Both the position numbers and the translations under genes were made by a program. The notes below the pieces were generated by a model, which searched no databases, had not been told where the DNA came from, and was given only the letters and a program-made list of their open reading frames with translations. From contig CASDUP010000023.1 in assembly GCA_949283955.1 (NCBI GenBank), positions 1 to 47,574 on the forward strand: a stretch of 47,574 bases of DNA. Direction: 5' to 3'. The DNA is from an uncultured Verrucomicrobiota bacterium (GTDB taxonomy: Bacteria; Verrucomicrobiota; Verrucomicrobiia; Opitutales; Intestinicryptomonadaceae). Each line of letters opens with the position of its first letter. Position 1 is the first letter of the stretch. Positions 36,731-40,043 of this stretch are shown here, piece by piece.

Positions 36731-36760
36731 GATAAAATGTTCCACGTGGAACATTTTATC
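36731..36760. other. parS-type centromere site within a 30-bp perfect palindrome
   Basis: The core TGTTCCACGTGGAACA (36738-36753) is a recognised form of the ParB-binding parS consensus. The palindrome extends perfectly by GATAAAA/TTTTATC to 30 bp. parS sites bind ParB for chromosome segregation and usually cluster near the replication origin. The parAB genes are not in the window. Confidence 0.8.
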
Positions 36761-37793: not shown

Positions 37794-40043
37794 ATGTTGA
37801 AAATAGGCAGAGAGTCGCCTTACGGAGTTATCGTGTGCGGAGCCGGACACGCCGGCTGCGAAGCGGCTTTGGCGTCGGCGCGCATGGGCGTAAGTACTCT
37901 CCTAATCACGGGAAATTTGGACACCATAGCCCAGATGAGCTGCAATCCCGCCATAGGAGGACTTGCGAAGGGCCATATCGTTCGGGAAATAGACGCCCTC
38001 GGGGGCGAAATGGCAGTCAATGCCGATGCTACGGCGCTTCAATTCCGGGTGCTGAACGCCTCAAAAGGACTCGCGGTTCAAGGACCCCGGGCCCAGTGCG
38101 ACAAAAAGGCCTACCAATTCAGAATGAAAAGGGTTTTGGAGGCGGCGGAAAATCTTTCGGTTTTTCAGGCGGAGGTCGTTAGGTTGATTGTCGAGAACGG
38201 AACAATTCGGGGAGTGGGAGTCAATTTGGGCGCCGAGTTTTACGCGGAAACCGTGATTGTCACTACGGGAACTTTTCTGAAGGGACTAATGCATGTCGGC
38301 GGAGCCAAAACGGAGGGCGGAAGAATGGGCGATTTTTCTTCCCGAAAACTTTCGGCCAGCCTCGAGGAGTGCGGCATAAAACTCGAGAGATTAAAGACTG
38401 GAACTCCGGCCAGAATTTTAGGCAAGTCGATTGACTTTTCGAAATGCGTTCCCCAGAGGGGAGACGAAGATCCTCAACTTTTTGCATTTTACGATACCAG
38501 GGTGTCGGATTTTTCGTCGGAGGCGGAAAGGGCTATTATATTTGAAAAGAAAGGCATTTTTTTGCCAAAAAACGAAGGGAAACATCCGCGGAAGGGGGTA
38601 AAACGCGTTTTAGGGGCAAAAGAATGCGAAATAGAGGCTGTTGTCCAAAAATGTAATTTTTGGGAGCCCGAAAACGGATCCGAGAAGGGGCAGGAGGGCT
38701 TCGGAGAAAAAATGTTCCACGTGGAACATTCTGAACCGGGTTCGGGAGAGAATTCCGTTCACGGAGAGGGAAAAAATCTTCTAAAAACACTCGACTCTTG
38801 CTCGTCGTTTGTAAATCCGTCGACGGGCCTTCCGTACGGGGAGGATTCCGAGGGGCGAAACTTCTCTTCGATTCCAGAGTCCGGAGAATGGAAAAGGGCC
38901 TACGAGTCGGAGTTTGAAAAAATGTCTTTTGGGAATTTCGACGGGTTTGGGAAATCCCAGCTTTTGTGCTATGAGGTCCACACGAATGAAAGGACGAAGG
39001 AGATAATCCTAAAAAATCTCGGAAGATCCGCGATGTATGGAGGGGAGATAAAAGGGGTCGGGCCGCGCTATTGTCCGAGCATAGAGGACAAGGTTGTTCG
39101 GTTTACAAGCCACGAGACGCACCGTTTGTTCTTGGAGCCCGAGGGGAGGTTTACCGACGAGTGGTACATAAACGGCCTTTCAACTTCTATGCCTTTGGAC
39201 GTCCAGCTTGAGATTATTCGTTCTATTGAAGGGCTTGAAAACGCCGAGATAGCCAGGCCGGCGTATGCGGTGGAGTACGACTATGCTCCTCCCACGCAAA
39301 TATTTTCTACTTTGGAATCCAAAATTGTCCGCAATTTATTTTTCGCAGGGCAGATAAACGGGACGAGCGGCTACGAAGAGGCTGCGGGGCAGGGGCTTGT
39401 TGCCGGAATAAACGCGGCTGCGCGGGTTTTGGGTTTGGAGCCGCTCGTTTTGCCCAGGCACGAAAGCTACATAGGGGTTTTGATAGACGATCTCGTGACC
39501 AAGGGCACGAAAGAGCCGTACAGAATGTTTACTAGCAGGGCGGAGTACAGGCTTCTTCTAAACCATCAAAGCGCAGACATTAGGCTTTTCAAGTACGCGA
39601 AGCGGTACGGGCTTTTGGGCGCGGAGAGGGAAGGCGCGGTAGCGCGCAAAAAGGAGGCTATAGACGCTTGGACGAGAGCTCTTTCAGCGGGGGGCGCGTC
39701 GAGGATCTTGAGAAGGTCGGGAGGGATTGTTTCTTTCGGAGATTTGCCCGAAGAATTGGCGGTCCTCTCAAGGGACGCCCGAAACGAAATTCTATACAGG
39801 GCGGTTTTTGGCGGCTATTTGGAGCGGGATTTGCGGCAGATAGAGAAAATGAAGGACGTGGAGGACGTGGTCGTTCCGGAGGAGATGGATTTTCAAAATT
39901 TAAAAGGATTGAGGATAGAGGCTTCCCAAAAGTTCGCGAAGGTAAGGCCGAGAACTGTGGGGCAGGCCTCGAGAATTTCCGGGGTGTCTCCGGCGGATAT
40001 TGGTGTTTTGCTTGTGCATATAAAAAGTTTCCGCAAGCGGTAG
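37794..40043 (+). CDS. mnmG: tRNA uridine-5-carboxymethylaminomethyl modification enzyme MnmG with a large insertion
   Basis: 749 residues; E. coli MnmG has 629. The N-terminal FAD motif is GAGHAGCEAA (about 16-25), followed by SCNPAIGGLAKGH, QGPRAQCDKKAYQ and GTFLKG. The later core is intact: CYEVHTNERTKEII, GVGPRYCPSIEDK, LFFAGQINGTSGYEEAAGQGL and SRAEYRLLLN. Between about 235 and 388 lies an in-frame hydrophilic insertion of roughly 150 residues (E. coli has about 15 here) that contains MFHVEH, encoded by a parS site. Together with MnmE, MnmG modifies the wobble uridine of several tRNAs. ATG 37794 gives the family N-terminus; a GGAGG lies too far upstream to be decisive. Confidence 0.93.
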   Translation: MLKIGRESPYGVIVCGAGHAGCEAALASARMGVSTLLITGNLDTIAQMSCNPAIGGLAKGHIVREIDALGGEMAVNADATALQFRVLNASKGLAVQGPRAQCDKKAYQFRMKRVLEAAENLSVFQAEVVRLIVENGTIRGVGVNLGAEFYAETVIVTTGTFLKGLMHVGGAKTEGGRMGDFSSRKLSASLEECGIKLERLKTGTPARILGKSIDFSKCVPQRGDEDPQLFAFYDTRVSDFSSEAERAIIFEKKGIFLPKNEGKHPRKGVKRVLGAKECEIEAVVQKCNFWEPENGSEKGQEGFGEKMFHVEHSEPGSGENSVHGEGKNLLKTLDSCSSFVNPSTGLPYGEDSEGRNFSSIPESGEWKRAYESEFEKMSFGNFDGFGKSQLLCYEVHTNERTKEIILKNLGRSAMYGGEIKGVGPRYCPSIEDKVVRFTSHETHRLFLEPEGRFTDEWYINGLSTSMPLDVQLEIIRSIEGLENAEIARPAYAVEYDYAPPTQIFSTLESKIVRNLFFAGQINGTSGYEEAAGQGLVAGINAAARVLGLEPLVLPRHESYIGVLIDDLVTKGTKEPYRMFTSRAEYRLLLNHQSADIRLFKYAKRYGLLGAEREGAVARKKEAIDAWTRALSAGGASRILRRSGGIVSFGDLPEELAVLSRDARNEILYRAVFGGYLERDLRQIEKMKDVEDVVVPEEMDFQNLKGLRIEASQKFAKVRPRTVGQASRISGVSPADIGVLLVHIKSFRKR
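38711..38730. other. parS-type site inside the mnmG coding sequence
   Basis: A 20-bp perfect palindrome whose core TGTTCCACGTGGAACA (38713-38728) is identical to the intergenic site 1,975 bp upstream. It lies in frame within the MnmG insertion and encodes MFHVEH (residues 307-312). Confidence 0.8.

Follow-up and report, generated by a model that had tools for sequence, protein, structure and literature searches.

Why should the gene of MnmG (GidA), a conserved tRNA-modification enzyme, carry within its reading frame a perfect palindrome of the parS type, and is this palindrome a chromosome centromere? Here we report the analysis of a window of 47,574 nucleotides (the whole stretch of DNA under study; positions 1 to 47,574 of contig CASDUP010000023.1, GenBank assembly GCA_949283955.1) from an uncultured member of the Intestinicryptomonadaceae (Verrucomicrobiota: Opitutales), together with a comparison of the locus across related genomes. 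Comparison of the sequences makes it very probable that the palindrome is a chromosomal parS, i.e. an origin-proximal centromere, which is held in a permissive loop of MnmG within the mnmG reading frame.

The mnmG gene and its palindromes

The coordinates of the locus are collected in Table 1. The MnmG encoded there has a complete domain set (TIGR00136, 746.3 bits against a cut-off of 524.85; PF01134 and PF13932 present). In the alignment to E. coli MnmG (PDB 9hip), query residues 8-233 correspond to chain residues 25-250, and the match restarts at query residue 388 (chain residue 258). An earlier note on this DNA had described an in-frame insertion of about 150 residues between residues 235 and 388, which was measured here at 154 residues; the E. 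coli enzyme has 7 residues at this place (251-257, chain numbering) rather than the about 15 given in that note. The composition agrees with its description as hydrophilic and rich in Gly, Ser and Glu (38% Gly + Ser + Glu versus 24% elsewhere in MnmG; 27% versus 43% hydrophobic residues).

Table 1. Features of the mnmG locus, in positions of the window.
Feature	Position	Strand	Basis
mnmG (gidA) CDS, 749 aa, host of parS	37794-40043	+	open frame; TIGR00136, PF01134, PF13932
Hydrophilic insertion, residues 234-387, predicted disordered	38493-38954	+	alignment to 9hip; composition; pLDDT
20-bp perfect palindrome AATGTTCCACGTGGAACATT with exact parS core TGTTCCACGTGGAACA, inside mnmG	38711-38730 (core 38713-38728)		identical 16-mer in mnmG of relatives and in P. 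aeruginosa parS2/parS3
Six codons ATG TTC CAC GTG GAA CAT (MFHVEH, residues 307-312) across parS	38712-38729	+	
Second parS, 30-bp perfect palindrome, between superoxide dismutase gene and mnmG	36731-36760 (core 36738-36753)		

In an AlphaFold2 model based on 36 sequences, the MnmG core outside the insertion was predicted at high confidence; pLDDT was at least 90 at 477 of the 749 residues and below 50 across most of residues 239-379, and the top PDB matches of the model were solved GidA/MnmG structures. A model computed from the single sequence was uninformative (mean pLDDT only 33). The low pLDDT agrees with a disordered, solvent-exposed loop, as the earlier note had supposed, without being proof of the exposure itself. 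The window MnmG has the full domain set of MnmG/GidA enzymes and matches GidA best in structure, and differs from the E. coli enzyme in the long loop and from MnmG/GidA in general in the DNA site.

The palindrome in the middle of the insertion was found exactly as described before, with MFHVEH encoded across it. Its 16-bp core is identical to parS2 and parS3 of Pseudomonas aeruginosa, which are reported as perfect palindromes that are bound best by the ParB of that species (PMC4368675). A second exact copy, absent from the earlier note, lies 1,975 bp upstream of the one in mnmG. The window holds two exact copies of a 16-bp palindrome with the parS consensus, against 0.16 matches expected at ≤3 mismatches from shuffles of the window. 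No third exact copy was found in the draft genome (1.65 Mb in 58 contigs, 91% complete), both of whose copies sit at mnmG, one inside and one upstream.

Distribution of the site in the Verrucomicrobiota

The proposal that a parS-type palindrome has been accommodated within MnmG has strong support from sequence and holds far beyond the source genome. Within the family, exact parS was present in 15 of the 17 mnmG frames that were fetched. A long insertion without the palindrome, which the earlier note had named as evidence against its reading if widespread, was seen in the other two (G001 and G002, with loops of 128 and 127) and counts in part against that reading; in both of these exact parS lies about 1.5-2.1 kb upstream of mnmG. 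In G001, which belongs to a sister genus, four exact copies occupy 380 bp (L132:3916-4295) upstream of the site-less gene; the only open frames that cover them are 96-166 aa long, and this genome may therefore have shifted its centromere to non-coding DNA.

Two observations concern single assemblies of the family. One of the 15 site-bearing frames (G006, L009) has an in-frame TAG in the insertion, upstream of parS, which could reflect a split gene, a sequencing error or readthrough. A single-contig, 95%-complete genome of the same genus as the source (G009) gave no match to MnmG, ParB or DnaA and no parS at ≤2 mismatches; either the assembly is odd or partly missing, or the loss is real.

Exact parS was found anywhere in the genome in 72 of the 94 genomes of the order sample and in 68 of the 125 genomes of the phylum sample, most sampled genomes being drafts. 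In the pooled samples, one or more exact copies are present in 129 genomes, and mnmG was fetched for 123 of these (the six left out of the pooled count are G069, G075, G083, G142, G160 and G174). Because mnmG was fetched for most site-bearing but only part of the site-less genomes of the phylum sample, the following counts describe the site-bearing fraction and not a phylum-wide frequency: exact parS lies inside the mnmG frame in 116 of the 123 genomes, 143 of the 172 exact copies fall within that frame, and the sole site of single-site genomes is within mnmG in 74 of 78 cases (per-genome totals transcribed by hand from the order and phylum scans). The seven site-bearing genomes without an exact copy in mnmG are G020, G079, G095, G109, G167, G200 and G125, and G079 has a copy with one mismatch in the mnmG loop.

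An MnmG frame was recovered by HMM parse in all 173 fetched loci, and parS was located in this frame in 134 of them at ≤1 mismatch and in 125 exactly; the frames run from stop to stop, so that sites at the N-terminal end (L015, L154) may precede the true start. Both genome-wide copies of Cerasicoccus frondis are in the mnmG loop, and the single parS in the 5.8 Mb of Verrucomicrobiae bacterium DG1235 is located in mnmG.

The position of the site within the gene differs among lineages. Its distance to the GPRYC codons that follow is 142 nt in most of the order and 100 nt in four families of the same class (f28, f29, f31, f32); in family f27 the site falls in the C-terminal part of mnmG. In a tree of 123 of the 173 loci, made by a quick method with long branches flagged and not used to count independent gains phylum-wide, the C-terminal sites of f27 form one group, the loop label requires 11 changes (starred branches force 9 of these), and 9 changes are required for the absence label, so that gains, losses or moves of parS have recurred. 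The 50 loci left out by the motif filter of the tree include 45 from other classes, the three-frame cases described below among them.

The span between the TGTP and GPRYC motifs is 221 residues in the window MnmG and 90-221 residues among 16 parsed family members, with a median of 92 (range 85-152; 81 parsed loci) in the rest of the order. The earlier note had offered two routes to the present arrangement. Arrival of parS together with the insertion was rejected, as the site is found in shorter MnmG loops across the order, and growth of the insertion around an existing parS fits the Intestinicryptomonadaceae. Since the order-wide sites sit in shorter loops, parS is probably older than the long insertion. 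Judged from these alignments, the insertion is a family-level, lineage-specific growth of a loop that is very short in E. coli.

Replication origin, ParB and other possible roles of the palindrome

In E. coli, gidA adjoins oriC. The dnaA gene was sought in 28 genomes and lies 7-70 kb from mnmG in six of them (G137, G177, G175, G170, G143, G214) and 0.27-2.2 Mb away in others. GC skew was determined in ten 20-kb samples from each of four single-contig genomes with dnaA 1.0-1.9 Mb away (G050, G101, G022, G135), and its sign fits an origin at mnmG in 39 of the 40 samples, being negative on one side and positive on the other. The lone sample of the wrong sign (G050, +60 kb) places the flip of that genome between +60 and +300 kb. 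In all four genomes the flip tracks mnmG and not dnaA, which is therefore a poor origin marker there and was dropped as such. Between 34 and 42 kb of the window, which comes from a draft genome, the local GC skew is positive and reaches 0.19.

These positions bear on a first alternative, namely that ParB at the palindrome mainly regulates mnmG or its neighbours and that gene control, not a centromere, drives the conservation. The palindrome does lie inside a gene, the source genome has one site upstream of mnmG and one within, and in P. aeruginosa promoters next to parS3 and parS4 are reported to be repressed more strongly when ParB is raised (PMC5521831). We nevertheless consider gene control improbable as the main role, because the site shifts between two loop positions and, in f27, the C-terminal part of the gene, unlike an operator, and is found at or near the GC-skew flip. 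Furthermore, a regulatory site would also have to be the centromere wherever it is the only exact parS of the genome, as it is in nearly all of the single-site genomes.

One ParB was found in the draft genome (PF02195, 9.8e-29; TIGR00180, 173.5 bits against a cut-off of 58.45). It has ParB_N, HTH_ParB and ParB_C domains, is encoded on a different contig from mnmG, and we infer that it is the cognate of the in-mnmG parS. In a by-eye reading, its segment KPRSTVAN aligns with KERSTVAN of PDB 7bnk, and SMGHAK with SMGHAR. The Arg and Gly of parS specificity (which would be Arg173 and Gly201 in Caulobacter numbering) are kept, and some adjacent contact residues differ, e.g. K for R after SMGHA. Arg versus Gln and Gly versus Arg at these positions are reported to separate parS-reading ParB from its relative Noc, which has Gln and Arg (PMC7383237). 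TIGR04285 (Noc) scored 213.1 bits on the source ParB, under its cut-off of 315. The mnmG site also differs at several positions, the centre included, from the Noc-binding consensus (NBS), given as TATTTCCCGGGAAATA (PMC7383237).

The search for ParB covered 80 of the 218 genomes, a set chosen to be rich in site-less ones, and 48 of the 80 had a TIGR00180 match over the cut-off; seven genomes with weak, sub-cut-off ParB-family matches were scored as negative. After omission of the 13 genomes whose mnmG was not fetched, 67 remained, in which a site in mnmG (≤1 mismatch) was present in 35 and missing from 10 ParB-positive genomes, and present in 2 and missing from 20 ParB-negative genomes (Fisher p = 1e-7, with relatedness uncorrected and site-less genomes over-represented). 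The two ParB-negative genomes with a site are drafts (G089, 60 contigs; G027, 160 contigs). Among the ten ParB-positive genomes without a site in mnmG, seven had no exact parS anywhere (G073, G085, G105, G090, G104, G150, G213) and three had one elsewhere in the genome (G095, G020, G001).

That some factor other than ParB binds the palindrome would account for these ten of 45 ParB-positive genomes, and the role of ParB in the phylum is itself read from sequence. This second alternative is very unlikely, however, as the 16-mer is the same as that of the two parS sites bound best in P. aeruginosa, its presence follows that of ParB, the source ParB keeps the Arg and Gly that read parS, and in the four genomes sampled the skew flips at the site or near it.

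Several of the exceptions have features of their own. The reduced f25/g45 genomes G073, G085, G105 and G095 have kept ParB and have no parS in mnmG; as three of the four lack any exact copy, their ParB may read another sequence. In G020 the mnmG loop reads LYVERP and has no parS copy, and the sole exact site is in another open frame some 21 kb distant from mnmG, in the FHVE frame (L131:259-2001 (+), site at 992); a Pfam search of this open frame returned 0 families. The mnmG loop of G104 (L118) contains two sites with the same variant core GTTCCATGTGGAAC (CAT for CAC), which perhaps reflects a shifted ParB preference in that species.

Probable selection on the DNA, proposed role and related systems

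Whether nucleotides are more conserved than amino acids at the site, a question put by the earlier note, can be answered from the codons. Where MnmG contains FHVE, it is encoded by TTC CAC GTG GAA in 156 of 167 cases, a share that the codon usage of the rest of these genes would put at 3.6%, and the synonymous codons are near-fixed; 34 of the 42 families with the peptide use these exact codons only (the test is uncorrected for relatedness, and the families are not independent). The 11 exceptions have CAT (8) or GTA (3), and every one of them is a single change.

None of the three forward frames of the parS 16-mer contains a stop codon, and the same holds for the reverse frames because the sequence is palindromic. 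In-frame sites at ≤1 mismatch are read in the FHVE frame (162), the CSTWN frame (7) or the VPRGT frame (9), and the FHVE frame accounts for 142 of the 154 exact in-frame sites. Two loci, L164 (G177) and L166 (G134), have three parS copies in one mnmG loop, one per frame (LFHVEQ/LFHVEH, DVPRGT and CSTWN), and one of the copies in G134 has one mismatch. As position and frame vary between MnmGs, parS seems to shift within the gene, and from frame to frame, more readily than it leaves mnmG. Selection on the in-mnmG site looks, in these comparisons, to act at the level of the DNA.

Accordingly, there is hardly any probability left for the third alternative, in which the peptide [MLV]FHVE[QH] is functional in MnmG and the identity of the DNA is incidental. 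The predominance of the FHVE frame would suit it, as would two 0.9-Mb f30 genomes without ParB that retain FHVKQ or FHVRQ in the loop, with 4 and 6 DNA mismatches from parS. These two reduced genomes also speak for the centromere reading, since their DNA has diverged from parS where ParB is missing. Against it stand the near-fixed synonymous codons, the encoding of CSTWN and VPRGT by the same DNA in other MnmGs, and the segment itself, which is absent from E. coli MnmG and predicted to be disordered in the window MnmG. The peptide was rejected as the conserved entity because of the codon fixation together with the three reading frames.

Rickettsia palindromic elements are in-frame palindromes in protein genes that occur in many dispersed copies. 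A mobile element of this kind, inserted in frame and by chance in mnmG, would share with them a short palindrome within a coding sequence, here in a growing low-complexity segment, but was rejected because of copy number and has next to no probability, as the family, order and phylum samples have at most four exact copies per genome, mostly 1 or 2 and at one locus, the flanking bases differ among relatives, and many-copy dispersal in unrelated genes occurs in none of the three samples.

The reading that we prefer, a parS centromere in a permissive loop, would work as follows. The MnmG loop would tolerate very different peptides, so that every base of the site can be held constant although translation runs across it. 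ParB would nucleate at the mnmG parS and then slide over the adjacent DNA with CTP, and the loaded ParB would provide a handle for ParA and SMC in the origin region. The gene would host parS owing to its proximity to the origin and its permissive loop, which in the Intestinicryptomonadaceae would additionally have grown around the site. We infer both ParB occupancy and centromere function of the mnmG parS, and in one part of MnmG the sequence seems to be set by the segregation of the chromosome and not by the enzyme.

Sites within genes have been described before. Nine of the ten parS of P. aeruginosa PAO1 are reported as most likely within coding sequences (PMC4368675), so that intragenic parS is already known, and those nearest oriC lie in recF (PMC3909081). 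The ParABS system of P. aeruginosa has in common with the present case an identical palindrome and sites in coding sequence; its ten sites in PAO1 are, however, distributed along the chromosome, whereas the Verrucomicrobiota mostly have one or two, chiefly in mnmG, and this in many genomes. In a Hi-C study of twelve gut bacteria, Akkermansia among them, parS sites were mapped, and the accessible part of its text does not give the host gene (PMC10197239). The accessible parts of the literature searched (including PMC10197239, PMC7383237, PMC4368675, PMC6315104 and PMC3909081), the survey by Livny et al. 2007 aside, contained no description of parS as a conserved element of mnmG/gidA. The survey by Livny et al. 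is said to be the main one for parS and may mention single cases.

The arrangement would illustrate clearly, in nature, how a function of the DNA can shape a coding sequence, with the same 16 bp in three frames of one protein, and it offers a reason for the variable loop of MnmG. It predicts where many uncultured Verrucomicrobiota have their centromere and probably also their origin region, even those with dnaA far from the GC-skew flip, and makes it a directly testable question whether the centromere of the phylum lies inside a conserved enzyme gene.

A contig collection was scanned for parS 96-156 nt upstream of GPRYC codons, and at least 120 loci matched. All of the matches listed have TGTTCCACGTGGAACA, at a distance of 142 nt in at least 60, 100 nt in at least 42, 119 nt in at least 8 and other values in at least 10. 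Nearly all titles among the matches listed are Verrucomicrobiota or taxa within this phylum; two others among them, L349 (titled Betaproteobacteria) and L346 (titled Acidobacteriaceae), are probably mislabelled. The matches at 119 nt (at least 8) comprise seven Sphingopyxis records and a further one with the title Proteobacteria (SPHING1), and each of them uses the CSTWN frame. Four Sphingopyxis genomes were searched whole and have three parS within about 3 kb, one of the three in the mnmG loop. In a Prevotellaceae MAG, all three genomic parS are inside mnmG, in the VPRGT frame. From their sequences, the Sphingopyxis and Prevotellaceae cases may be read as independent uses of the same MnmG loop.

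A wider reading is tentative and, in our estimate, rather unlikely. According to it, mnmG itself would be the chromosome centromere of the Verrucomicrobiota and the main or only ParB loading site through most of the history of the phylum, moving among loop positions, frames and the C-terminal part but rarely out of mnmG; Sphingopyxis and a lineage of the Bacteroidota would have converged on the same solution independently, and ParB loading would couple segregation to the expression of an enzyme of tRNA modification. The loop pattern was present in 13 of 296 genomes of the order to which one of the Sphingopyxis genomes (G218) belongs, so the in-loop parS is restricted within this order.
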